From the IMG/VR virus record IMGVR_UViG_3300046010_004758, positions 1 through 21,317 of that record: a stretch of 21,317 nucleotides of DNA; one strand, given 5' to 3'. This document shows, piece by piece, positions 733 through 17,792 of the stretch (positions are counted from its first letter, which is position 1; every line of letters starts with the position of its first letter). A program made the translations under genes and the position numbers. Under the pieces are notes generated by a model. The model searched no databases and was not told the DNA's origin. It was given only the letters and a program-made list of their open reading frames with translations. This DNA comes from a virus.

Positions 733-2559
733 TTAGTTATTCTTAGGTGCAGGACGCTCTCGACCAGTGCCGTCATAAATCAATCCATCGCCATCACGGT
801 CAATCGGTCCACTTAGTAGATTCCTGCCCTCGGCTGTCAGAGGCTTGACGTAATCTATGACCATATTCGACATGAGGCGCCTTCCAGCCCAATCCCATTC
901 ACCATCATCATCTTTGACTCGGTTTTCCCATCCGAGGTTTGCGAATTCGGCTGGCATCGGGAAATCAGGGTTACGCATATCGCGAACTCTTTTGCCAGCC
1001 TCAGCCGTGGAATCGTACATTCTTTCAAATAGAGCATCGAACGCTGGCTTTTCCTCGTCTGTCAATGAGTAATTGCGAGCCGTCTTTAGTTTGTCTGCAC
1101 TGCTACGGACTGAATCGGGGTCCCAATCAAAACCTGCTCTAGCCCAGTGACGAGCGCCATCGCTTAGACCAGCCATAATTTTGATATAGCCAAAACCTTT
1201 AGCGGTGTAGTAATCCTCAGACTGTTGAAGAAACTCTTTGCCGAATCCCTTACCTTGATATTCATCATCTATCTCGAACCATTTATGTTCAACATTCCAA
1301 GTATCGTCCTCTTTGAAGAAAACTCGCTCAAATTTACCAACCGCATAGCCTTCGGCATAGATTTCACCCTCAACGTAAATACCTTCATCTTCGACCAAAC
1401 TAACATCGGTGACTTGAGAAACCATTTCATATTCGTTGCCATCTTCTTCGACAACATTTACGCTTGAGAAGAAAACATCATTGAAAGGCGCTTTTAGGTC
1501 AGATGCGTTTTGAATTAGACCCATCTGCTCATTACGGATATTACGAATATCATCACCATATTCCAAGATATAGTTTTTGACTGCGTACTCTGATTCTTGC
1601 TCATAGATATTGGCTTTTTCTTGCTCTGTAAGAGGTCGACCTAATCGTGCTTCAGCCAATTCTGTTGCTTCACGAACTCTTTCATCTAAGCCTTGGCTGG
1701 ATGACATTTCGTCATACTGGTCGCCGTCATTGAGAACGAATTCGCGTAAATCATCAAACGAGGTTGGAGCAATTCCTGATATTGCTTCATCAAGCATTCC
1801 AACGCTTGGACCGAGATTCTCATAACGAGTAATTCCCTCGGCTTGGGATTCAGTATATCCCTGACCTGTTGCCCAGTTGCCATGACTCTTTTGGTCATGC
1901 TCGGGACCACCCTCATGTTTGAATACGGGCTTTAGCCCATACTCAAATCGGATTACTTGGGTTTTGCCATCTTCTCCCAAAGAACTTTTGCGTACTCCCG
2001 TAATTCTTCGTCCGTCATATCCGAGATATTCGGATTCAACTCCGCCACCTTGATATCTTTGTTTTCCGACACTGCCTGTTCCTCCCGTATCTATTTCAGC
2101 GAAGTTAGCAACATCCCAAATTGAAATTTGGTCACGTTCCCGACCTGCGCTGGTTGCCCTCTCTCTATCTTGGATATTTTCCGAGACATCTAAATAAACT
2201 TGGTTATCTGCCGTATTATGCCATAAACCGAGGTAGTTTTTCCCCGTTGCAAGGTCAGACTTGTTGGCTTTCATGTACTGATACAGAATCTCAGGACCAC
2301 GCTCAGAGTCGTAGAAATCTTCAGCCTTGACGATTCGCCCATATTGCTTGCCCTTGGCGACCATGAATCCAGTCGTAGGCTCAGAGCCGTCCACCATGTT
2401 GACCGAGAGACCACCATTGACTCGAACTCTATCTAAGATACTCGAGGCAACGGCAGGGTCAAGACTGATTCCCGTAGCCCATGAACCGTGGGTCTTTTGG
2501 TCATGAGAGCCATGTTTGACTAAAGGCTTCAATCCGTAATCAAATCTAATGTTACTCAT
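733..2559 (-). CDS. Modular head-associated protein with GNAT-like domain and repeated HDQK(T/S)HG linkers
   Basis: 608 residues, starting with an ATG that overlaps the MuF stop (4 nt), so it is translationally coupled to a head gene. Layout: residues 5-30 RFDYGLKPLVK...HDQKTHGSWATG; ~31-200 an unassigned domain rich in YLDVSENI and ISIWDVANFAEI strings; 204-232 a second copy of the linker (RFEYGLKPVFK...HDQKSHGNWATG); ~235-365 helical; ~366-500 a GNAT-acetyltransferase-like fold with EYQGKGFGKEF (434-443, motif A) and HWARAGFDWD (471-480, motif B end). The C-terminus (568-603) has a degenerate IDYVKPLTAEG and an EF-hand-like DRDGDGLIYDGT loop. HDQ..HG..A linkers recur in phage capsid-module proteins, from memory. 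The protein may be a virion-packaged multi-effector or a decoration/maturation factor. The acetyl-CoA role is inferred from the Q-x-x-G-x-G motif alone. Confidence 0.75.
   Translation of the reverse strand: MSNIRFDYGLKPLVKHGSHDQKTHGSWATGISLDPAVASSILDRVRVNGGLSVNMVDGSEPTTGFMVAKGKQYGRIVKAEDFYDSERGPEILYQYMKANKSDLATGKNYLGLWHNTADNQVYLDVSENIQDRERATSAGRERDQISIWDVANFAEIDTGGTGSVGKQRYQGGGVESEYLGYDGRRITGVRKSSLGEDGKTQVIRFEYGLKPVFKHEGGPEHDQKSHGNWATGQGYTESQAEGITRYENLGPSVGMLDEAISGIAPTSFDDLREFVLNDGDQYDEMSSSQGLDERVREATELAEARLGRPLTEQEKANIYEQESEYAVKNYILEYGDDIRNIRNEQMGLIQNASDLKAPFNDVFFSSVNVVEEDGNEYEMVSQVTDVSLVEDEGIYVEGEIYAEGYAVGKFERVFFKEDDTWNVEHKWFEIDDEYQGKGFGKEFLQQSEDYYTAKGFGYIKIMAGLSDGARHWARAGFDWDPDSVRSSADKLKTARNYSLTDEEKPAFDALFERMYDSTAEAGKRVRDMRNPDFPMPAEFANLGWENRVKDDDGEWDWAGRRLMSNMVIDYVKPLTAEGRNLLSGPIDRDGDGLIYDGTGRERPAPKNN
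1864..1950 (-). repeat. Second copy of the intragenic linker repeat
   Basis: Encodes residues 204-232 of the 608-residue protein. It matches residues 5-30 in order: R-F-(D/E)-Y-G-L-K-P, a short basic stretch, then H-D-Q-K-(T/S)-H-G-(S/N)-W-A-T-G. The copies differ by a four-residue insertion (GGPE region) and several substitutions, so this is a diverged protein-level duplication rather than a recent DNA duplication. Confidence 0.8.
2470..2547 (-). repeat. First copy of the intragenic linker repeat
   Basis: Encodes residues 5-30 of the 608-residue protein: the RFDYGLKP block followed by HDQKTHGSWATG. It precedes the first unassigned domain, while the second copy precedes the GNAT-like part. 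The element therefore appears once per module, like a linker or processing tag. Confidence 0.8.
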
Positions 2560-3596
2560 TCGTAGTAATCCTCATAGGTCATCTCTGAATAAATATCGGC
2601 GTACTTCTCAGGTGGGATAAGTTTGATTGTACAACGGCAATTAGGGTGCGCTATAGGCTTTTCCAGCCCGTTTGAGAAGGTATCTAGCCATCCCACGGTC
2701 TCTCCATCCAACTCAGCGCAGATAGGGCATGTACGCTCATCCTCAGCCGTTACCCATATCTTCATGGAATCAGGGTCTACGAATCCCTCTTTAGCGGCTT
2801 GCTTCCAACTCTCAAGGCGTCCCTCATTCTGTGCTATCTGAATCTCTGTACGGGCTATCATCGTGGCTCTAGCGCTCTTGAGACGCTCTGAATACTGGGT
2901 AGCCATAGTTGATGCCCTGTTGCGAGCCACGGTCTCTTTGAAGCCCTCTGAGACCAATCGGTTGAACTGACGATTCTCATACTTGACTACGGCTTGCGCC
3001 CATTTCGGATGTAGACCGACAGAATTCTTGATTCGTTTTGCGGTGGTCTTGTAATCCACTTTGTCATTGAAAGAATCAATGATGATTTGACGAACTCCCT
3101 GACGGGTCATGTCATCAATGGCTGTAATCAATTCAGCGGCGCGTTTCTGTGCAAAGAAAAGTGAATTCGGATTGGTCTTATCAAAAGAGATATTGACGTC
3201 CATCTTTGGTCGAGTGCTAGATGCCCATGCAGGAATCTTTGTGAACTCTAATCCTCGTAAAGAATTCTTGTTATCAATCTTTACCTTAGATGGCTTGAAA
3301 TTAGGGAAAGCCAATCTTGTTGACAATCTTTGAATCTCAGCGATACCAGCATTACCGCCAATATCAATCGAATTGAGCAAAGTCTCTTCAATACGTTTTC
3401 TATCGCCAGCGATAGTGATAGCACCTAATAAGCGATTGAGTTTGTCAGGGTCAAGACGTTCGATAATACGAGCCAACTCTTCAACCTTGATTTTGCTATT
3501 GGCACGACGAATCGCATCATAAAGATTACGAGCGAGAACTGCCTCTTCAGGTGTTAGTGGGTCTCTGCGTTCGGCTTTAGAGAACTTGAATGGCAT
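2556..3596 (-). CDS. Phage head morphogenesis protein, Mu gpF / SPP1 gp7 family
   Basis: 346 residues. The diagnostic MuF block is near the C-terminus: ARTEIQIAQNEGR at ~248-260, then WVTAEDERTCPICAELDGE at ~281-299 with CxxC (C290, C293), then AHPNCRC at 316-322, giving the usual C..C....HPNCRC pattern. The N-terminal two-thirds is helical. MuF proteins are minor head proteins associated with the portal and are needed for capsid assembly. The gene starts 3 nt after the portal stop and overlaps the next gene by ATGA, the standard portal-MuF order. The length suits a stand-alone MuF protein, and the extra modules sit in the neighbouring gene. Confidence 0.9.
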   Translation of the reverse strand: MPFKFSKAERRDPLTPEEAVLARNLYDAIRRANSKIKVEELARIIERLDPDKLNRLLGAITIAGDRKRIEETLLNSIDIGGNAGIAEIQRLSTRLAFPNFKPSKVKIDNKNSLRGLEFTKIPAWASSTRPKMDVNISFDKTNPNSLFFAQKRAAELITAIDDMTRQGVRQIIIDSFNDKVDYKTTAKRIKNSVGLHPKWAQAVVKYENRQFNRLVSEGFKETVARNRASTMATQYSERLKSARATMIARTEIQIAQNEGRLESWKQAAKEGFVDPDSMKIWVTAEDERTCPICAELDGETVGWLDTFSNGLEKPIAHPNCRCTIKLIPPEKYADIYSEMTYEDYYE

Positions 3597-3599
3597 GGA

Positions 3600-4997
3600 T
3601 TACTCCAAGTCGCCATCAAGTGGTTCCGTTCCTTCTGCAATCTCCAACTCTTGCGGATTCTCTCCGGGTTCAAGGTCAGTCGTAGGCATTGGAGGCATTC
3701 CGAAATTTTGTCCATCGTGTTCAGCAGGTGGAAGTCCAGCGAGGTCGCGTAGATAATCTTCCAACTTAGGGTCAGGCATAAGTACGCCAGCCTGTGCTAA
3801 CTTCGTAACGAAATCAGAAATCTCTGTTAGGTCAACATGGCTTACTTCACCATAAGTCAAATACGGTGGACGTGAAATATCCATTCCGTTTAGTTTCATC
3901 AATCGTGGAATCGCATATTGATTGATAACCTCAGCGATATTCTTTGCGATTGAATCAACTGCCATTGACCACAAATCCATCTTCGACGAACCAAGTGCGT
4001 ATGAACCAACGCGGTCATGTCCGAGAAGAATGAAGTCAGAAAGAATAGACATCGCCATTCTTTGGTCATAGCGTTGAATAATCTTGTCTGTATCAAACTG
4101 ACGTGAGCCACCTGATGAAAGCAACTGTAGGTCAAACATCTTGTGACCCTGCTCGTCATACATGGTTGGGAAAATAATTCCCTCTTGCTCATTACGCTTT
4201 ACGTTTTGAACAATAGTCGTAATAGCCGCTAGAACTGCCTGTTGGTCTCCTGAAGCACCGCTTGATAGATACTCAGGCGGAACGAATGCAACTGGCAAAC
4301 CTGCTAGGTCGCGCTCGATACCAATGGCTTCAATCTCTTCAATACGGCGCTTGAAAAACCAAGGGCGATAAGCATTACGAAGAATTGAACGACCTTCAGG
4401 GTTATTCTTTTGAGTTGTTGTACGGAACAACAAAGCCTTCTCGATTGGAATTGTATGAATTCCACCTTGTGATGGGTCAACTTGAATCATGGCTTGAATA
4501 CCGCCATCTTCATCAATTTCCCAACGGAACAAAGTTTCTTGTGCGCGAATTGGGAACTTGCGCCAACCTATCTTTCCATCATCAAATTTAGATTTACGCT
4601 TTGGGTCTTTGCTATCTCCACCGCGAATCTTGTAGACAATTTCGTGGTAAGAAAAACCGAATACCAACATTGAAAGCATTTGTGAAAGTGTTTGGTCCCA
4701 TGAATCGCTCATGTCATGAATACATGATTCAATGAATGCCGCGGCTTCTTTATCTTGCTCAGAAATATCTCCGTCAGCAGAATTATCTGAATATGGGTCT
4801 ACACGCCATTCAAGACGAGTGATAACTTTCTCAATAGCGAATAACATCGAGCCAATAGTTGGGTCGTTATCTGCCATCTCGCGATAAACACGAGCGCCAC
4901 GAATACCGCGAAGCGACGTAAGAAATTCTTCATAGACAGTGCCACCCGAGCGACGTAAGCCCGTACTACCTAATTCATTCAAATCGGGTTTTGCCAT
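3600..4997 (-). CDS. Phage portal protein, DUF935 (Mu gp29-like) family
   Basis: 465 residues. The N-terminus has the family pattern VYEEFLTSLRGIRGARVYREM, with ADNDPTIGSMLFAIEKVITRLEW at ~43-65. Further on come FGFSYHEIVYK, FRWEIDEDGG and a C-terminal region with NQYAIPRLMKLNG. Portals form the dodecameric ring at one capsid vertex through which DNA is packaged and to which the tail attaches. The last ~50 residues are acidic and Pro-rich (PTTDLEPGENPQELEIAEG), typical of a flexible tail. No terminase gene lies immediately upstream. The preceding genes are a 51-residue protein, a 99-residue hypothetical and SSB, which is unusual. The family call is firm; the exact start rests on the ATG with AGGA upstream. 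Confidence 0.9.
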   Translation of the reverse strand: MAKPDLNELGSTGLRRSGGTVYEEFLTSLRGIRGARVYREMADNDPTIGSMLFAIEKVITRLEWRVDPYSDNSADGDISEQDKEAAAFIESCIHDMSDSWDQTLSQMLSMLVFGFSYHEIVYKIRGGDSKDPKRKSKFDDGKIGWRKFPIRAQETLFRWEIDEDGGIQAMIQVDPSQGGIHTIPIEKALLFRTTTQKNNPEGRSILRNAYRPWFFKRRIEEIEAIGIERDLAGLPVAFVPPEYLSSGASGDQQAVLAAITTIVQNVKRNEQEGIIFPTMYDEQGHKMFDLQLLSSGGSRQFDTDKIIQRYDQRMAMSILSDFILLGHDRVGSYALGSSKMDLWSMAVDSIAKNIAEVINQYAIPRLMKLNGMDISRPPYLTYGEVSHVDLTEISDFVTKLAQAGVLMPDPKLEDYLRDLAGLPPAEHDGQNFGMPPMPTTDLEPGENPQELEIAEGTEPLDGDLE

Positions 4998-10151: not shown

Positions 10152-12272
10152 ATGTCGCCTTTGCGTATTTTGCGTATCATTTTTATCTGCCTAATTACCC
10201 TGTGGTGGGTTTTCATCCCTATGTCCGATTCAGCCTCGGCTAATCAGGTCGTGGCAACTGCTACGGCTAACGAGGGCTTTGTCCTCTACATGGACGCCCC
10301 ACAGGGCTATAAGGTCGACCAAGTGCTTTTTGCCTCCTATGGGACCCCGAATGGGACGAGCCTTGGCTCATGTCATGCCAGTAATTCTTTGAGCATCGTT
10401 ACCGCCGCAATCAAGAATGAGAATCTTGCGATTCCCGCGACCAATGGTGTTTTCGGAGACCCATGCGGTGGAACTTACAAACGATTGACCGTCTCAATTT
10501 CCTATCAACAAATTGCGCCATCTGCTCCGCTACCTCCGAACAATCTTGTTGCATCATCGAGCAATACCGATATCACTTTGACATGGAATGCGCCATCGAC
10601 TGGAACAGCCGTCGAGCGTTATGCAATTTTTTGGTCATCTGATAATTGGGCAAGTGGTCGAGCCGTAGCATCGACAAGCACTTCAATTACTTTACCAATA
10701 GAGGTTGTTGTTTATGACGGACGCGGTAAAGATTTTAGTTTCAAGATTCGCTCTGATAATGATTCATTGAGTCTTTATTCGGAATGGTCGAATGTAGCAA
10801 CTGTCTTTATTCCTGCTTTGGCTCCCGTCCCAACACCCACGCCCACCCCTTCTCCAACGCCTGAGAATTCTCCGAATCCTGAACCAACCGTTGCACCGTC
10901 TCCTTCGCCTTCACTGACTGTTTCTGATTCACCCTCTCCAAGTCCGACGCCAACGCCTGAACTTTCCCCTTCTCCCACTTCAGAGCCATCTCCAACTTCT
11001 CAACCTCAGCCAAGTAGTAGTCCTTCACCGTCGAGTGAGCCAACATCCAGCCCAACCCCAAGCCCATCGCCAACACAAACAGAATCAAGCCCATCTCCAT
11101 CGCCTAGTCCCTCCACGGCTCCAAGTCAGTCGCCTCAACCAACGGCGAGTCCTGAACCAAGTGAGTCGGCACCGTCTCCCACTCCTTCCCCTTCACATGG
11201 ACAAGGACAGGAATCAGAGCCTCAAGTTTCTCCAAGCCCGACACCTTCTGTAACTCCGACAACTCCATCTCAACCGACCCCGGAACCCGAGCCGTCCAAG
11301 CCTGAACCCACACCTTTGCCATCGCCTACTCCTTCACCTTCTCCTCAACCACAGCCTACTCCTGAACCCATTCCCATTCCGTCCCCTGAACCTCAGCCAA
11401 GTCCAAGTCCCGAAGCGACACCCTCTGTCGACCCTCAGCCCGAGCCAACTCCTGAGCCTTCTCAAGAATCTCAGGATGAACCTTCCGAGTCCCAAGAGGA
11501 AAGCGACCAGCCAAGTCAAACACCTGAACCACAACCATCTACAGAACCGTCGCAATCAGAATCAGAATCCACACCGTCGGAAGAAGAATCTTCAGACTCA
11601 ACTGAAAACGACGAAGCATCTTCACCTGTTGATAGTGAAGAGGATTCAGACCAATCGAATACACAACCTGAAGAATCCGAGACCGACGCTTCAACCGACG
11701 AAGAAGAATCAGAGTCACAATCGTCAACAGAACAAGAGCCAACCAATCCGTCCACAGAATCATCTGAATCTCCCATCGAAATTTTGAAAGATATCTTACA
11801 AGATGGAACTGTCACTGCCGCTGAGGTCAAGTCAATCGTGTCCTCGGCGCTTGAAGATGGAAAATTAGATGAGCAAGAGCGCGAAGTTGTTGCCTCAGCC
11901 ATCGTCGCTCAATTTGTTGATGCACCTGCCGTACCAGCCGAAGCACTGAAAGATGCAGGATTGGATTTCGCTGATTTACCAGCCGAAACCCCCGTGGATG
12001 TTAGAACGGACGAGGATGGAAACGCAGTGATTATCACTGCTGAAGTGGCTGATGCGTTAGAACTACTTGTATCGCCAACAGAAATTATCTCTGCGATTTT
12101 CGAATCACCTGCTCAACTTATTTTTGCTCTCGGAAATCTCGGTGCAGACATGTCAACTGAGGAGAGAGAAGAAGCAACAAAAACAATTATTGCCGCGACC
12201 ATCGTTGGCAATATCGCAACAACAGCCATAGGAACTGCCGCTATCGGTAGTATCGGATATAGGAGACCGTAA
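10152..12272 (+). CDS. Large secreted/surface protein: lectin-like domain, Fn3-like domain, Pro/Ser/Glu stalk, C-terminal membrane helix
   Basis: 706 residues. Signal/anchor at 5-30 ([20 protein letters not shown]). Residues 40-118 resemble the SUEL-type galactose-binding lectin domain: [14 protein letters not shown], then [29 protein letters not shown], with Cys74 and Cys105. Residues ~123-221 look like an Fn3 domain ([15 protein letters not shown]). Residues ~225-540 are low complexity, first Pro/Ser/Thr-rich, later Glu/Ser/Asp-rich. Residues 540-706 contain two acidic helix-turn stretches ([17 protein letters not shown]), a TPVDV strand region, [12 protein letters not shown] and a hydrophobic C-terminus ([20 protein letters not shown]). 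It could be a virion fibre or a lysogeny/infection-time surface protein binding glycans. It is coupled by TAATG to a membrane protein. Confidence 0.75.
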
Positions 12273-12698: not shown

Positions 12699-12706
12699 AG
12701 TTTAGC

Positions 12707-13231
12707 CTAGGCGACTTGTGCCAATTTAGCCCTCAACTCTTGGTTACTTATTTTTTGCTCCTCAACCCAACCTCGTCGAGACTGTGGGCATCGTGCTTTT
12801 GTCGGTCCATTCTTTCCGAGGACTTTGACACCTTTGTAGTGATAGGCGCCCTGTAAAGCCTCGGATGCTTCTTTGCCCATGAAGTGTCGGACTAAATCCA
12901 ATAGGCATGAAGCGAACTCGGGCTTGTGTCCATCTAGTCGTGTTAGGTGATGAGCGACCTCGTGAAGAATCACGAATCTCGTTCTAGCCCACTTAGGCAA
13001 TTTGATTGCTCGATTGCCATGATGAAATGTTGCACACGCTTTACGGCGACCTCGACCATCGAGAACGACGATAGGCGACTTCATGCGATATTTCTCAATC
13101 ACATATTTTCGAGACATGATTTTGTCTACGAACTTTTGGCATTCCTTGAGGGTCATCGGGTCTGTGTACTTGATGCCCGACATGTCCTCAGCGATATAAA
13201 GGCGACCTGCTTGGTCTTTGACTTTAGCCAT
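12707..13231 (-). CDS. HExxH zinc metallopeptidase-like protein (TIGR04338-like)
   Basis: 174 residues from the ATG behind the leader GGAAGGGAGAAAC, not the ATG 30 nt upstream. FVILHEVAHHLTRLDGHKPE holds the HExxH zinc site, and KPEFASCLLDLVRHFMGKEA and HYKGVKV follow. The N-terminal part has KECQKFVDKIMSR and a VVLDGRGRRKACATFH strand. This arrangement matches a family of putative metallohydrolases found in actinobacterial genomes and phages. Substrate unknown. It lies in a minus-strand unit with the holin-like gene. Confidence 0.8.
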   Translation of the reverse strand: MAKVKDQAGRLYIAEDMSGIKYTDPMTLKECQKFVDKIMSRKYVIEKYRMKSPIVVLDGRGRRKACATFHHGNRAIKLPKWARTRFVILHEVAHHLTRLDGHKPEFASCLLDLVRHFMGKEASEALQGAYHYKGVKVLGKNGPTKARCPQSRRGWVEEQKISNQELRAKLAQVA

Positions 13232-13232
13232 G

Positions 13233-13257
13233 TTTCTCCCTTCCGTGACCCAGTATA
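13233..13257 (-). promoter_or_regulatory. Promoter/leader of the metallopeptidase unit
   Basis: Minus strand CCCCCGTTTGATATACTGG with TATACT at 13252-13257, identical in its core to the promoter before 17974. The leader GGAAGGGAGAAAC supplies the ribosome site but shows no clear hairpin. The -35 region (near 13275) is poor. Confidence 0.65.
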
Positions 13258-13348
13258 TCAAACGGGGGTTTAGAAAGAATCAGAAAGTTGAGTCGCTCAG
13301 GCTCAGGTTTGATAGGACACGCCACGATTTGACACCCTTTTCCACCTT

Positions 13349-13398
13349 TTGATTCCCAACCCCAGTTGTGATATCCTTGAGGTGTCCGAAAGGGGGAC
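13349..13398 (+). promoter_or_regulatory. Promoter/leader cassette
   Basis: TTGATT (13349-13354), 17-bp spacer, TATCCT (13372-13377), then GTCC (13384-13387), loop and GGAC (13395-13398) flanking the ribosome site AAAGGGGG, and ATG at 13401. Confidence 0.75.
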
Positions 13399-13400
13399 GC

Positions 13401-13721
13401 ATGGGAAAGAAACTTGAGGGGTTCGAATGGAACCAACGTGTAAGTGGCGATTACGAATCTGTTGACAGATTTCTTCACGAGGGTCTTGTTACTCCCGAGG
13501 TTGCCAGCGCAGGAGAACTGCTTCTTGCCGCTGAATGGTTGTCGACTTATGACGCAGATAGTATCGAAGATGCTCAGAGATGGGCAAATGTAATCGGTTT
13601 CTTGGTCGCGGGTGCTGAAGCCAAAGAAAAGCGCACCGCGCTCGCAAAGGCAAAACGTGAATATGCCAAAGCCCATGGCATCAAAGTTTCTCAAGTCAGA
13701 GTCAAAAAGGAGACGAAATGA
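13401..13721 (+). CDS. Helical actinophage hypothetical, 106 aa
   Basis: The start is fixed by the leader hairpin just upstream (GGGGGACGC then ATG); the longer frame would include the leader. All-helical: ASAGELLLAAEWLSTYDADS, AQRWANVIGFLVAGAEAKEK, then a Lys/Ala-rich C-terminus (KAKREYAKAHGIKVSQV). Short helical proteins of the AE.L.AAEWL..Y kind recur in actinophage early regions, from memory. The stop overlaps the next ATG (ATGA). Function unknown. Confidence 0.75.
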   Translation: MGKKLEGFEWNQRVSGDYESVDRFLHEGLVTPEVASAGELLLAAEWLSTYDADSIEDAQRWANVIGFLVAGAEAKEKRTALAKAKREYAKAHGIKVSQVRVKKETK

Positions 13722-13942
13722 CAACTCAAATTGATAACAACGAGATATTGGATTTCGTTGAGTATGTCGATACTTTCTACAATCCAGTGACAGGCGTTTA
13801 TCCAATCGGAGGCGCAACTGTCGAGGTCATTACGAAAGCGACCAAGGCTTATGTTGGTTCGCTCAATGATGAGACAACATGGGGCGGTGGCGATAGCGTC
13901 GATAGAGAGCGCGTTCGCGACATCATCTTCCAACTTGTTTGA
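13718..13942 (+). CDS. Small hypothetical, 74 aa
   Basis: Translationally coupled to the previous gene (ATGA). Sequence has IDNNEILDFVEYVDTFY, VYPIGGATVEVITKATKAYV and a C-terminal helix (RERVRDIIFQLV). The stop codon lies inside the -35 of the next promoter. No family recognised. Confidence 0.7.
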   Translation: MTTQIDNNEILDFVEYVDTFYNPVTGVYPIGGATVEVITKATKAYVGSLNDETTWGGGDSVDRERVRDIIFQLV

Positions 13943-13989
13943 TTTACAACCGTAGTTAGGTTACACTCGAACTGTCCGAAAGGGGGACA
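13939..13989 (+). promoter_or_regulatory. Promoter/leader cassette
   Basis: TTGATT (13939-13944, containing the previous stop), 17-bp spacer with ACAACCGTAGTTAGG, TACACT (13962-13967), then the hairpin TGTCC (13973-13977), GAAAGGG, GGACA (13985-13989). Confidence 0.75.
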
Positions 13990-13993
13990 ATCA

Positions 13994-14350
13994 ATGAAAG
14001 TCAAAGTAACGTGGAAGGCATTCGGCAATAAGCCCGATGCAGGTCGTTTCATCTCAAGCGTTGAGTTTGAAACTGATTTCACAATCACAAATCCGTTGTT
14101 GTTATGTGATGTTATTTATCATGTGACTAACACTTACTCAGGCAATCTATGGAAAATCATTGAGCCTAAGTTATCTCCAACCCGAACTCACACAGCGCTC
14201 TCAGTAGGCGACGAAATCGAAATCGATGGACAGGTTTATGTCTGTGCTGATTTCGGATGGGTCAAGGCTGAAGAGGCTGATATCGAATACTTGTCTAGCG
14301 AATATGGGGACGGTGCAGTATTCAAAGTTCGTGAAAGTGTGAATTTCTAA
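13994..14350 (+). CDS. Hypothetical protein, 118 aa
   Basis: Own promoter and leader hairpin. Begins MKVKVTWKAFGNKPDAGRFI, beta-rich in the first half. The second half has a small barrel-like pattern (HTALSVGDEIEIDGQVYVCA, DFGWVKA), of the type 'SVGD.I..DG..Y.C...GW' seen in many phage early proteins, from memory. No catalytic motif. Monocistronic by layout, since another promoter follows at once. Confidence 0.75.
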   Translation: MKVKVTWKAFGNKPDAGRFISSVEFETDFTITNPLLLCDVIYHVTNTYSGNLWKIIEPKLSPTRTHTALSVGDEIEIDGQVYVCADFGWVKAEEADIEYLSSEYGDGAVFKVRESVNF

Positions 14351-14389
14351 CCATAGTTTGATATAATCAGAATGTCCGAAAGGGGGACA
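14339..14389 (+). promoter_or_regulatory. Promoter/leader cassette
   Basis: GTGAAT (14339-14344, overlapping the end of the previous gene), 17-bp spacer with CTAACCATAGTTTGA, perfect TATAAT (14362-14367), then the hairpin TGTCC (14373-14377), GAAAGGG, GGACA (14385-14389). Confidence 0.8.
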
Positions 14390-14391
14390 CA

Positions 14392-14730
14392 ATGAAAAAT
14401 AAATACCAATGCCGAACCTTTGACACAAAGGAACTCGTCAATCAGATTGGTTTGATGAATGTTCTAGCAATCTCAGGTGGTCGCGTTCACAGCATCGTCA
14501 ATGATGAAGGTGAGACCGTCGAGGTTCAACTGCCAGTAGGTAAGGGATATCGAGTATCAATCACTCTAGGCTTCATGGATACATGGACAGTGCGCCGCGA
14601 ATATGTTCGAAAGGGCGAGGTCAAGGTCAAGGGTGTTCAAGAGGATGTCTACTTTGACCAAGTAGGCGAAGTTGCTTACAAGGCAAGTTGCTTTGTAAAT
14701 GTTCCGTTTGGAGAGGCGGTAAAGAAATGA
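14392..14730 (+). CDS. Phage hypothetical, 112 aa
   Basis: Begins MKNKYQCRTFDTKELVNQIG. LMNVLAISGGRVHSI (22-36) is followed by alternating strands (LPVGKGYRVSITLGFMDTWT, VRREYVRKGEVKVKGV) and a C-terminal FVNVPFGEAV. The 'iG..n.LA.sGGRv' start followed by 'Y.V.I.L...DTW.V' is one I associate with small phage proteins of unknown function. Coupled to the next gene by ATGA. Confidence 0.75.
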   Translation: MKNKYQCRTFDTKELVNQIGLMNVLAISGGRVHSIVNDEGETVEVQLPVGKGYRVSITLGFMDTWTVRREYVRKGEVKVKGVQEDVYFDQVGEVAYKASCFVNVPFGEAVKK

Positions 14731-14933
14731 CTCAACCAACACTCAACGCAGATGGAAAGTTTGACCTAACAACTCGAATCATCGAATTTGAAACAGGCGA
14801 ATCAACTCAAGAAGAGGTAATCGAATTGTTTCAATATCTCGTCGATAGTGGATTGGCTTGGTCTTTACAAGGTAGTTATGGACGAACTGCTGAAGCACTT
14901 ATCGAAGCAGGTTATGTAATTTCGTCCAAGTAG
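14727..14933 (+). CDS. DUF7417-like phage protein, 68 aa
   Basis: The ATG at 14727 overlaps the previous stop and is chosen over a frame that begins 39 nt earlier inside that gene. Contains RIIEFETGESTQEEVIELFQ, then YLVDSGLAWSLQGSYGRTAE and LIEAGYV, the 'E.GE....E...LFQ.L.DsGLAW.LQG.YGR.A..LI..G' signature common in actinophages. The DUF number is from memory. Function unknown. Confidence 0.8.
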   Translation: MTQPTLNADGKFDLTTRIIEFETGESTQEEVIELFQYLVDSGLAWSLQGSYGRTAEALIEAGYVISSK

Positions 14934-14935
14934 TA

Positions 14936-14962
14936 TAAACTAGGGTTCATAATCGAAAGGGG
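14936..14962 (+). promoter_or_regulatory. Promoter-like -10 and ribosome site before the deacetylase gene
   Basis: AAGTAGTATAAACTAGGG carries TAAACT (14936-14941) in the same context as the cassette before 19722. An alternative -10 is CATAAT (14948-14953). GAAAGGGGA (14955-14962) is a strong Shine-Dalgarno 6 nt before the ATG. The -35 is not convincing. Confidence 0.5.
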
Positions 14963-14968
14963 ATATCA

Positions 14969-15889
14969 ATGGAGCATGCAGTATTAGTACATTCGCCCGA
15001 GTATGCGAATTGGGTCTTTGACCCAAAGCATCCAACTCAGGGTCGACGATTCTTACACGGACGTAATCAGATTGTTCTTGAGGCGCAGAAGCGCAAACTC
15101 AACGTGTGGGAGATTGCTCCTGAATATCCATCAACTGATGACTTACATCTTGCACACGACGAAGAATATGTGTTCGATGTTGTTATCCGTGGCGAGTCAC
15201 ATGAATGGACGGGTCAACGTCATGACCTAGGAGATTTAGCCAAACTCTTTGTTGGCGGAACTCTGACTGCTCTCGATACGCTGATTGATTTGAAAACTAA
15301 GTTAGCGATTCACCTCCCCGGCGCAAAGCATCACGCACAGCGCGACCATTCAAGCGGATTCTGCGTATTCGGTGATTTTGCTATCGCCGCGAAGCGAGCC
15401 GTCGAACTCGGATATCGTGTTGCGATATTTGATATGGACGCACACCATGGCGACGGTACAGAGAATCTAACTCTCAATGACGAAAATATCTTGACCTTCT
15501 CGGTTCATGAGTGGGGCATCTTCCCCGGAACTGGTCTAACGTCAGATTTCAAGAATAACGCCTATAACTATCCGCTTGCCTATAAGAGTGGCGATATCGG
15601 ATTGTTGACTGCGACAGAGAACTTTCTGACGGTCTGCGAGAAGTTTGCGCCCACGATGATATTCGTAGCCTCGGGTGCTGACGGTCTCAAGGATGACCCG
15701 TTATCCTCACTCGAATATACATCCGATGGATATTTCCGAGCCGCGAGGATGATTAGGGAGCAATTCCCTGACCACCCGATTCTCATGGGCGGAGCAGGTG
15801 GCTACCTGCCCGATACAGGAACTCCCGAGGTTTGGAAGAATGTTGCGCTTGGTTTGATGGCGGTTCATACTGAGGTAGTAAAACCCTAA
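14969..15889 (+). CDS. Histone-deacetylase/AcuC-family deacetylase-like enzyme
   Basis: 306 residues with the full zinc-hydrolase signature of the arginase-deacetylase fold: LHLAHDEEYV (59-68), the His pair GAKHHAQRDHSSGFCVFGDF (118-137, H121/H122), FDMDAHHGDGTE (154-165, zinc ligands D157 and H159), VASGADGLKDDPLSS (233-247, third ligand D238) and MGGAGGYLPD (273-282, transition-state Tyr279). All catalytic positions of HDAC/acetoin-utilisation-type enzymes look intact. The family removes acyl groups from lysine side chains or small amines such as polyamines. It is rare to see in a phage. It has a strong ribosome site, and the Ntn peptidase gene follows 13 nt later in the same unit, so a shared role on host proteins is plausible but inferred. 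Confidence 0.88.
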   Translation: MEHAVLVHSPEYANWVFDPKHPTQGRRFLHGRNQIVLEAQKRKLNVWEIAPEYPSTDDLHLAHDEEYVFDVVIRGESHEWTGQRHDLGDLAKLFVGGTLTALDTLIDLKTKLAIHLPGAKHHAQRDHSSGFCVFGDFAIAAKRAVELGYRVAIFDMDAHHGDGTENLTLNDENILTFSVHEWGIFPGTGLTSDFKNNAYNYPLAYKSGDIGLLTATENFLTVCEKFAPTMIFVASGADGLKDDPLSSLEYTSDGYFRAARMIREQFPDHPILMGGAGGYLPDTGTPEVWKNVALGLMAVHTEVVKP

Positions 15890-15902
15890 GTAAGATATCC
15901 CA

Positions 15903-16463
15903 GTGACTACACTTGTTGGGATTCAAGGACGTTCTTGGGCTTTGCTAGGCGCTGATACTCGCGTTACGAGTGAAGGCACGATTTATCGTATGCCAAAGCA
16001 TCATTCTAAGATTGCTCAAATTGATGGGATTCTGATTGCATCCGCTGGCGATGTTCGCGGTATCAATGTGCTTGAACATAGTTTGAAGATTCCGAAAGTG
16101 ACTGCGAAATCTGATGAACAATTTATTACGAGTTATCTCATCCCTGCTATCCGTCAAGCATTCTCTGAGGCAGGGTACGAGAAAACTTCTGATGGGGTCT
16201 CGTCTCACGAAACCGAATTCTTGGTCGCTTACAAAGGAAAGATTTACGAGATTGATTCAGATTATTCTTGGGTTCAAGATTCGCGCAATATCTACGCTCT
16301 TGGCTCGGGTGGAATGATAGCCCTTGGCGCATTGGCAACTCTTGTCGGAGATTCGATTACTAAGACCGAGGCTCGCAAGTGGGCTTTGAAAGCATTAGAT
16401 ATCGCCAGTCAATATAACGCCGATACTGCTCCGCCTTATCATGTTGTTATTCAAGATAACTAG
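15903..16463 (+). CDS. HslV/proteasome-beta-like Ntn-hydrolase
   Basis: 186 residues, GTG start. After Met removal the protein begins TTLVGI, giving the N-terminal Thr nucleophile with no propeptide, as in HslV. WALLGADTRVT (12-22) supplies the Asp17 equivalent, KHHSKIAQIDG (32-42) the Lys33 equivalent (K36), IASAGD the following strand, and YALGSGGMIALGAL (131-144) the S-G-G loop. KWALKALDIASQYNADTAPP (163-182) matches the HslV C-terminal helix and strand. Length is like HslV. No HslU or other AAA+ partner lies in the window, so it may dock on a host ATPase or work alone. The ribosome site is weak, so translation probably depends on the deacetylase gene upstream. Confidence 0.87.
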   Translation: MTTLVGIQGRSWALLGADTRVTSEGTIYRMPKHHSKIAQIDGILIASAGDVRGINVLEHSLKIPKVTAKSDEQFITSYLIPAIRQAFSEAGYEKTSDGVSSHETEFLVAYKGKIYEIDSDYSWVQDSRNIYALGSGGMIALGALATLVGDSITKTEARKWALKALDIASQYNADTAPPYHVVIQDN

Positions 16464-16650
16464 ACTGCGTTGGCGATTCTTTATCGCTAGGCAACGTCTC
16501 AAGTTTGATGCGTGGCGTATCAATAGACGACTCAAAAGAATACTCCGAGGGCTTGAAAGACTCTAAGCCACAAACACAGACGGTGCGAACTTCATAGTAA
16601 GAATGATTCGGAACTGGCAAGACAACTAGGCATTCGGCTTTATGATTCAT
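16447..16650 (-). CDS. Small hypothetical, 67 aa
   Basis: The ATG overlaps the stop of the zinc-ribbon gene (ATGA), the main support for it. MNHKAECLVVLPVPNHSYYE, VRTVCVCGLES with C25 and C27, then a Ser/Glu-rich polar tail. Its end overlaps the convergent Ntn-hydrolase gene by 17 nt. No family recognised. Confidence 0.6.
   Translation of the reverse strand: MNHKAECLVVLPVPNHSYYEVRTVCVCGLESFKPSEYSFESSIDTPRIKLETLPSDKESPTQSSYLE
16468..16496. terminator. Bulged hairpin at convergent gene ends
   Basis: CGTTG-GCGAT, loop TCTTT, ATCGC, a TAGG bulge, then CAACG, just after the Ntn-hydrolase stop and inside the end of the opposing gene. No T-run follows on either strand, so intrinsic termination is doubtful; it may only slow polymerase or protect mRNA ends. 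Confidence 0.25.
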
Positions 16651-16814
16651 CGGATTGATTCTTTCACATCATCATGAACTTCAATATGAAACGCTTTGCT
16701 CTTGATATCTAAATTCTTTGTGTGATGACCGCAGAAGAAAAGAATCCCTGCTATGAAATATGCCTTGACCATGGCTGGCGCTCCGCACTTATCACAGCGC
16801 TCGCCAGTTTCCAT
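16647..16814 (-). CDS. DUF7455-like zinc-ribbon protein, 55 aa
   Basis: METGERCDKCGAPAMVKAYF, then LFFCGHHTKNL: CxxC (C7, C10) plus C-G-H-H (C28, H30, H31), which would complete a zinc site. The pattern 'RCD.CGA.A.V......G.L.FCGHH' is the small actinophage/actinobacterial family I recall as DUF7455. It begins two bases after the upstream stop with GAGGAAG as ribosome site, and overlaps the next gene by ATGA. Confidence 0.8.
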   Translation of the reverse strand: METGERCDKCGAPAMVKAYFIAGILFFCGHHTKNLDIKSKAFHIEVHDDVKESIR

Positions 16815-16816
16815 GT

Positions 16817-17002
16817 TTAGACTTCCTCGAAAATAGTGCCGCGGGTTGCGGTGCTTGAAACTCTCTCTGCGGTAAATGGTGTGTCTTTGCCGATTGACAC
16901 AGTAATTTCATCTTGGTCAACTACTGTTTCAACTCTAGCGTGACGGATTCTGTCATCTGATGTTAGGACATGCAAGTAGGTGAACGGACGAATGATTTTC
17001 AT
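16817..17002 (-). CDS. Small beta-rich hypothetical, 61 aa
   Basis: Start at the ATG with GGAAG 5 nt ahead, not the one 36 nt upstream, which overlaps the previous gene. Alternating strands (MKIIRPFTYLHVLTSDDRI, RVETVVDQDEITVSIG) and an acidic C-terminus. No Cys, no recognisable motif. Tightly packed with both neighbours, 1 and 2 nt apart. Confidence 0.65.
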   Translation of the reverse strand: MKIIRPFTYLHVLTSDDRIRHARVETVVDQDEITVSIGKDTPFTAERVSSTATRGTIFEEV

Positions 17003-17003
17003 G

Positions 17004-17636
17004 TTACTTCCAATCTTCAGGCAACTCGGCGGTTGCACCTAGGGCTTTTGCTCTACGGATAATGTGAGCCTTTACTTTGTCGGGATTCTTTGCCCGTCCA
17101 TAAGATGAAATCGCATTCTTCAAATCATTACGGCTTTTGATTGGATATGAACCATCAGGCATCGCCATATCTCGCGAGGCTAGGCGCTCGCGCTCTTCAG
17201 GTGTGAACTGACGCTTTGCAACTTTGTTCGTATCAGTAATCGGACCGCCAACAATCCATGCTCGACATGTTCTCGCTGAAGCACACTTGAAATCGAAAGC
17301 CTCGCAATATCCCAACTCACCTGCATCTGTTACATCCCATGCGTTTTCTTCAGTATCACCCGTGGCTAATCCACCTTGGATACATTCCATCATCTCTGAA
17401 GTTTGGATGAAAGCGGCGCAGTTTCCGCATTTTTGTTTCTTTGCTTCTTCTACAGAGACATCCCACTCATCAGCCATCTCTTGCCAATAGGCATCATTCG
17501 GCTCGGATGGATTGAGAGGACCGTAGTTAGCATCTTCAATCGCTTTTTCTCTGTTATCAAGATTAGCCCTTACATCCTGAGTCGCGGTTGGGCATACAGC
17601 CTTCAATAGTGTGTGAACTGCTGGCGTAAGGGTCAT
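17004..17636 (-). CDS. Cys-cluster protein with C-terminal DUF6582-like domain
   Basis: 210 residues. The middle has CGNCAAF (70-76), MMECIQGG, LGYCEAFDFKCASARTCRAW: at least six Cys in HiPIP-like spacing that could hold an iron-sulphur cluster or zinc. The C-terminus (MAMPDGSYPIKSRNDLKNAI, SSYGRAKNPDKVKAHIIRRA, KALGATAELPEDW) is the basic domain widespread in phage head-region and transferred proteins (DUF6582-like, from memory). No ribosome site; TAGAAT lies 7 nt before the ATG. In other phages this domain is often fused to or near protease or capsid genes, but here it is isolated among small early-type genes. Confidence 0.75.
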   Translation of the reverse strand: MTLTPAVHTLLKAVCPTATQDVRANLDNREKAIEDANYGPLNPSEPNDAYWQEMADEWDVSVEEAKKQKCGNCAAFIQTSEMMECIQGGLATGDTEENAWDVTDAGELGYCEAFDFKCASARTCRAWIVGGPITDTNKVAKRQFTPEERERLASRDMAMPDGSYPIKSRNDLKNAISSYGRAKNPDKVKAHIIRRAKALGATAELPEDWK

Positions 17637-17643
17637 GAAATAA

Positions 17644-17649
17644 ATTCTA
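17644..17649 (-). promoter_or_regulatory. -10-like TAGAAT, possible leaderless start
   Basis: TAGAAT on the minus strand ends 7 nt before the ATG at 17636, the same spacing as at 5172-5177. There is no Shine-Dalgarno and no convincing -35. Confidence 0.3.
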
Positions 17650-17654
17650 CGCTA

Positions 17655-17792
17655 TCAGGATTTCTTATCTTTTTTCTTCTCCATTGGTAAGCGCAATTTT
17701 TCTCTTCCATCTTTACGAAGAATCACAATCATGCCATCGCGAATGATGGACTTATTGAATGGATGTTTTACTTTTCTTTGACCGCTTGACAT
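17655..17792 (-). CDS. Small basic protein, 45 aa
   Basis: MSSGQRKVKHPFNKSIIRDG, MIVILRKDGREKLRLPMEKK and a Lys-rich end. Highly basic with one predicted strand pair, so it may bind nucleic acid. TATACT lies 6 nt before the ATG and no ribosome site is present, suggesting leaderless expression. It heads the minus-strand run opposite the SOS-box-controlled unit. No family recognised. Confidence 0.55.
   Translation of the reverse strand: MSSGQRKVKHPFNKSIIRDGMIVILRKDGREKLRLPMEKKKDKKS

Follow-up and report, generated by a model that had tools for sequence, protein, structure and literature searches.

Two adjacent genes encoding a classical zinc-dependent deacylase (nt 14969-15889) and a proteasome-superfamily peptidase (nt 15903-16463) form a real, conserved and hitherto undescribed two-gene unit of phages. 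Each enzyme belongs to a known superfamily; the new part is the conserved cassette, of which no description was found in a literature search that had subscription journals mostly outside its reach. Our preferred reading, offered tentatively and at somewhat less than an even chance, is that the cassette supplies a lysine deacylase and a barrel-type threonine peptidase, made together at the same stage of infection in freshwater tailed phages of likely actinobacterial hosts. Functional coupling of the two enzymes is plausible, albeit unproven.

Genome context of the two-gene unit

The stretch of DNA analysed (the window) was the whole of IMG/VR virus record IMGVR_UViG_3300046010_004758, with a length of 21,317 bp and a GC content of 45-48%, and is probably a genome fragment. 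By Pfam and PHROG matches, minus-strand genes encoded a Mu-type portal (nt 3600-4997) and a MuF-type head protein (nt 2556-3596), and the same searches placed a 608-aa protein in the head module (nt 733-2559, minus strand). Since a virus record carries Mu-type portal and MuF genes, the label "phage" given in the preliminary description was right. Upstream of the deacylase gene, two small plus-strand genes of clusters 12 (nt 13994-14350) and 10 (nt 14392-14730) were conserved in the same lineage; past the peptidase gene, a conserved Cys-rich gene of cluster 9 (nt 17004-17636, minus strand) served as a backbone marker. A nucleotide search of a phage collection with nt 12700-17700 of the window returned zero matches.

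Deacylase gene and its substrate class

The first gene (nt 14969-15889, plus strand) starts with ATG and encodes a protein of 306 aa that matched PF00850 (Hist_deacetyl) with an E value of 3.7e-53 and 181 bits (cut-off, 27.9). The zinc ligands D157, H159 and D238, the H121/H122 dyad and Y279 had all been named correctly in the preliminary description; in an alignment of 27-28 divergent homologues, H121, D157, H159, D238 and Y279 were invariant and H122 nearly so. The AlphaFold model (mean pLDDT 94.6) could be superposed, almost from end to end, on HDACs and on deacylases of bacteria (Z about 36-37, rmsd about 2.1, about 20-26% identity). On profile, fold and ligands, the protein belongs to the classical Zn-dependent deacylase superfamily (PF00850), as the earlier assignment to an HDAC-type deacetylase had it. 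The VIA structural matches were tied among HDAC classes, and the fold therefore leaves the subclass unassigned. A BFVD structure search returned only HDAC/APAH-type proteins of giant viruses, a result that says little on uncultured phages. The gene, with dN/dS values of 0.07-0.14, is under purifying selection.

In the scheme of Graf et al. (2024; PMC11532494), acetylpolyamine amidohydrolases (cluster 4) have the motifs RPPGHH and EGGY, an extended L2 loop and a head-to-head dimer, and the HDAC10-type polyamine deacetylase has a Glu gatekeeper in a PEG motif. In 21 of 21 phage deacylases, RPPGHH was replaced by PGAKHH (or AGAKHH) and EGGY by AGGY; the L2 loop was short, with no insertion in the aligned L2 region, and the gatekeeper position was occupied by L245 (D243-P244-L245), invariant over 28 sequences. 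Missing RPPGHH, EGGY and extended L2 loop depart from the published signature of cluster 4 acetylpolyamine amidohydrolases, and Leu instead of Glu at the gatekeeper departs from that of the HDAC10-type polyamine deacetylase. Because the RPP/EGGY motifs, the polyamine-specificity loop and the Glu gatekeeper are all absent, a deacylase of protein lysines, similar in type to AcuC, class I or class IV enzymes, would be the better reading than a polyamine enzyme. Polyamines had also been offered as possible substrates in the preliminary description, an option weakened by these motif criteria (PMC11532494), yet a SpeD gene adjoins the pair in two separate settings (see below).

Long-chain lysine deacylases of the VcHdaH/HDAC11-like kind are marked by a replaced RPP, a small residue in XGGY, an enlarged foot pocket and de-fatty-acylase activity. 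The two motif features were present, but their meaning is limited by the occurrence of GGxHH in AcuC-like homologues. GAKHH/AGGY was considered as a sign of long-chain deacylation and dropped, since the AcuC-like homologues L075 and L078 also have GGxHH, as do class I HDACs. The motif therefore leaves the acyl length unfixed, and what is claimed from it is limited to a predicted enzyme not of the RPP/EGGY class.

Peptidase gene and its class

The second gene (nt 15903-16463, plus strand) starts with GTG and encodes an N-terminal-Thr hydrolase of 186 aa, of the "minor" subtype described below. It matched PF00227 (Proteasome; E value 1.2e-10, 41.8 bits, cut-off 22.4) and PHROG phrog_1040 "peptidase HslV family" (E value 1.3e-23). 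Residues M1, T2, T3, D18, K36, G49, G134 and G136 were invariant in 28 homologues. T2 is Thr1 after Met removal, and T2, D18, K36 and G49 are the equivalents of proteasome Thr1, Asp17, Lys33 and oxyanion Gly47, with a GSG loop at 134-136; the N-terminal Thr, D18, K36 and this loop had been rightly described as intact. Because the protein opens directly with Met-Thr, it has no propeptide. In the AlphaFold model (pLDDT 93), which has helices at 51-60 and 71-89, residue 2 superposed on residue 1 of BPH and proteasome chains, which standard numbering designates the catalytic Thr1. The best fold match was BPH 5ovt, at 20% identity, with a Z of 21.4 and 2.6 A over 174 residues. Pairs within one subtype gave dN/dS values of 0.05-0.17, and this gene, too, is under purifying selection. 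With intact sites, folds and low dN/dS, both genes look like working genes.

By profile, fold and residues, the product belongs to the proteasome/N-terminal-Thr hydrolase superfamily. Of the earlier designation "HslV/proteasome-like", the proteasome superfamily part stood (PF00227 and fold), whereas HslV proper was rejected, the scores of 24 and 22 bits lying below the 137 and 157.75 bits required by the NCBIfam equivalogs. PPH (Fuchs et al. 2021; PMC8665760) is, like the members of PHROG 1040, which the window peptidase matches, a phage-encoded protein of the proteasome superfamily, but it has about 140 residues and lacks helix H2, and identity with it was ruled out by the 186 aa of the window protein and its modelled helix 71-89 at the H2 position. 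The same authors noted that no actinobacteriophage with an AAH homologue was known then (PMC8665760). The window peptidase shares Thr1/Asp/Lys, the oxyanion Gly and the lack of a propeptide and of any AAA+ partner found with BPH of Thiobacillus denitrificans (5ovs/5ovt) and its group I homologues (PMC8665760); it is 20% identical to BPH, which is a tetradecameric double ring. No AAA_2 unfoldase, the kind of partner (HslU) that HslV requires, was detected in 15 related phage contigs, which may be incomplete and whose hosts could provide one, and the control was positive in 14/14 genomes. By analogy, the peptidase would most plausibly form a barrel like that of BPH and work without an unfoldase.

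Conservation of the gene pair

As had been described, the two genes lie on the plus strand with 13 nt between them (nt 15890-15902), a slot that in relatives was mostly 9-45 nt long or held one gene. Two viral-contig scans with the deacylase, plus two loci that the scan with the peptidase had brought up, yielded 75 distinct deacylase genes, 70 of which had at least 700 nt of 3′ DNA and were counted. A peptidase gene followed on the same strand in 65 of the 70, directly in 50 and with one gene between in 15, the intervening gene being GP88 (PF17338) in 12 distinct loci and SpeD, for S-adenosylmethionine decarboxylase (PF02675), in 3. The pairing is therefore conserved across phage genomes rather than found only here, and the structural models keep both active sites, zinc and Thr; on these two points the preliminary description had made the idea of a pair depend. 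An adjoining peptidase was absent from a deacylase clade with a different backbone (L033, L037, L039 and L041) and from the short contig L043; on the 90-kb contig L041, a peptidase of the same family was located about 20 kb from the deacylase. Between the deacylase and peptidase genes, neither a promoter-like nor a terminator-like site was detected. In the 15 loci with an intervening gene, translation of the two is not coupled.

The GP88-family gene that splits the pair at L025 (4821-5543), as well as at L015, L018, L023 and others, carries the Cys motif CPQAGACASFCYA. Minus-strand ORFs between the two genes were rejected as shadow ORFs of the plus-strand GP88 gene. A missing, frameshifted or pseudogene peptidase was considered for L221, L224, L227, L231, L235, L247 and L258 and rejected, since an intact copy followed the deacylase in 7/7.

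Three distant peptidase subtypes fill the slot, designated major, minor (the window, L044, L092, L093 and others) and third (L187). The window peptidase was 30-32% identical to the major subtype; the window deacylase was 72-76% identical to clade A deacylases that adjoin major-subtype peptidases, and flanking genes shared about 32 to 89% identity with those of the same relatives. When the subtype labels were placed on a maximum-likelihood deacylase tree, at least 6 changes were counted, 5 or 6 of them forced by well-supported forks, and the slot was almost never empty across the tree. Thus, on several occasions either the peptidase was exchanged or the deacylase acquired a new partner, with the slot kept filled.

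Possible functions of the pair

According to the preferred reading, the product of the first gene would take acyl groups (acetyl or others) off lysines in proteins. That of the second, a small Thr-peptidase, would, like BPH, probably assemble into rings or barrels and, with no phage-encoded AAA+ unfoldase to help it, digest peptides or unfolded proteins. Both enzymes would be made together, at the same stage of infection, with the host (or virion) proteome as the target, the deacylase erasing lysine marks and the peptidase removing proteins, and one enzyme may depend on the other.

That there is no functional link, the cassette consisting of two separately useful enzymes in one conserved block whose peptidase was swapped by recombination via similar flanks, is a substantial possibility, if on the whole a doubtful one. 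Both genes were present in 50/50 loci that carry the backbone marker (the flanking Cys-rich gene) and at least 3.5 kb of downstream DNA; they are therefore core genes of one lineage, in which co-occurrence cannot separate coupling from shared ancestry, and simple synteny inside a single lineage of phages could account for much of the adjacency pattern. Furthermore, the peptidase is common without the deacylase, so the pair is not obligate: a short-pattern scan with a single sequence gave no relatives and a profile scan gave 529, and at 78 of the 80 best peptidase loci of the profile scan no deacylase was present within 6 kb. The pair can also be split by GP88 or SpeD. Against the absence of a link, 13 families were represented among the 5′ neighbours of the deacylase (66 loci) and 11 among the genes that come after the peptidase (64 loci), so that gene order around the pair is not simply frozen, whereas the peptidase slot stays filled, and the subtype changes on the deacylase tree took place without loss. 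The pair is maintained but not obligate, and it looks maintained by selection in this lake-phage family.

The peptidase could instead be a virion-assembly protease that substitutes for a prohead protease, with the deacylase separate. As the peptidase is often found in structural clusters of other phages, this is a live rival, even if an unlikely one. In other freshwater phages, it directly followed the portal gene, in about 40 of the 78 deacylase-free loci, or stood shortly before it, as where metallophosphoesterase, peptidase and a small gene precede the portal in that order; a further deacylase-free setting was beside WhiB. No S78 prohead protease, S78 being one of several such families, was found in 18 related contigs. 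However, in the longer relative G010 the peptidase adjoins the deacylase, with a distance of about 11 kb to the portal gene, which is encoded on the opposite strand. In the window, too, peptidase and portal lie far apart and on different strands. In addition, matches to head-maturation PHROGs were given by head genes, those of MuF type and others. At L096 (6001-6570) and about 40 similar loci, a proteasome-type peptidase occupies the usual place of the prohead protease directly after the portal, and peptidases of this type are a possible new kind of head-maturation protease.

An "erase and degrade" scheme, in which lysine deacylation of host or virion proteins would control their destruction by the unfoldase-free barrel, perhaps reversing marks set by the GNAT-like protein of nt 733-2559, is improbable. 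This protein contains a GNAT-like acetyltransferase stretch with a QGKGFG motif (nt 1129-1380, minus strand) that scored just below the Pfam cut-off in the window copy and just above it in the orthologue L176 (4166-6040). The two proteins, of 608 and 624 aa, share an N-terminal tag, KHGxHDQxxHGxWA. In L176, two ADP-ribosyltransferase genes (2684-3460 and 3457-4179; PF03496, Alt-like PHROG) whose products have the same type of N-terminal tag, HGDHDQSSHG, adjoin the MuF gene. A tag of this type may label proteins that are packaged into the head or injected from it, and the tagged head-module protein and the ADP-ribosyltransferases look like virion-delivered modifying enzymes. A single phage may therefore encode both a putative writer and a putative eraser of lysine marks.

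A polyamine module, in which the deacylase would free polyamines from acetylated forms and belong with SpeD, the peptidase being unrelated, has very little probability: SpeD, which phages carry more often than any other polyamine gene (PMC9992855), separates deacylase from peptidase in L012 (5957-6352), L021 (10959-11354) and L022, and in L187 (7815-8195) and L188 it follows the peptidase at a distance of one gene, the two versions being just 46% identical, but it was found in just 4 of the 25 related contigs tested, the deacylase has neither RPP and EGGY nor the L2 polyamine-specificity loop and Glu gatekeeper (PMC11532494), and the ten virus-encoded acetylpolyamine amidohydrolases of Li et al. 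were all from Imitervirales (PMC9992855). The presence of SpeD next to the pair in two settings still lends a polyamine role some weight.

Putative hosts

The nearest cellular deacylases (about 50% identity) were encoded in freshwater actinobacterial MAGs, including Nanopelagicaceae and Planktophila, and hosts of the phage lineage are therefore likely actinobacterial. Pup was detected in 4 of the 13 actinobacterial MAGs with the nearest deacylases and 20S proteasome subunits in 2 of the 13, these MAGs being incomplete. It had been suggested that acylation and Pup ligation meet on the same lysines; most relatives of the likely hosts showed neither Pup nor proteasome, and in general a contest of acylation with pupylation explains the pair poorly. 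With regard to the host-takeover or counter-defence role that had been suggested, neither the deacylase nor the peptidase matched the PADLOC defence systems. The MAG relatives of the deacylase (L048, L050, L053, L065 and L067) are located just downstream of a gene for a VWA-domain protein of about 440 aa, with which they form another conserved pair, distinct from that of the phages.

Comparison with known systems

The phage deacylase and the AcuC/class I-like, VcHdaH and HDAC11-like enzymes (PMC11532494) have in common the arginase-deacetylase fold (VIA Z about 36-37 to HDAC6, the lysine deacylase 5zmp and VcHdaH 9gky), the full catalytic set, a non-RPP foot-pocket motif and a small residue before GGY; the phage protein differs in sharing just about 21-26% identity with enzymes of solved structure and in falling into an HPTQGRR-bearing clade together with the freshwater actinobacterial homologues (about 50% identical). 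Fold and zinc centre are also common to the APAHs of M. ramosa and Imitervirales (PMC9992855), from which the phage deacylase differs in having none of the RPPGHH, EGGY and extended L2 loop of cluster 4. Little has been described of conserved classical deacylases encoded by phages, the viral APAHs of Li et al. (2023) being all from giant viruses. A lineage that keeps the pair side by side and has refilled the slot several times offers a direct test bed for phage deacylases and for the proteasome homologues that are widespread in phages.

Known phage-encoded lysine writers include Rac and AcrVA5. The nearest precedent for a link between phage acetylation and proteolysis is Rac of phiKMV-like phages (PMC7552054), which ties phage lysine-acetylation machinery to proteolysis of a host protein; Rac is a GNAT-type writer relying on host proteases, whereas here the eraser and the peptidase are both phage genes.

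Other genes of the window

The Cys-rich protein of the marker gene (nt 17004-17636, minus strand) shared about 80% identity across the lineage, with the motif QKCGNCAAFIQTS...CASARTCRAW, and in the window it had an extra C-terminal domain absent from 4 aligned relatives. The gene at nt 10152-12272 (plus strand) encoded a protein of 706 aa whose start resembles a signal peptide and in which a SUEL lectin domain (PF02140) scored at the cut-off; the protein of the same gene cluster in L030 was rich in Pro/Ser/Glu repeats.
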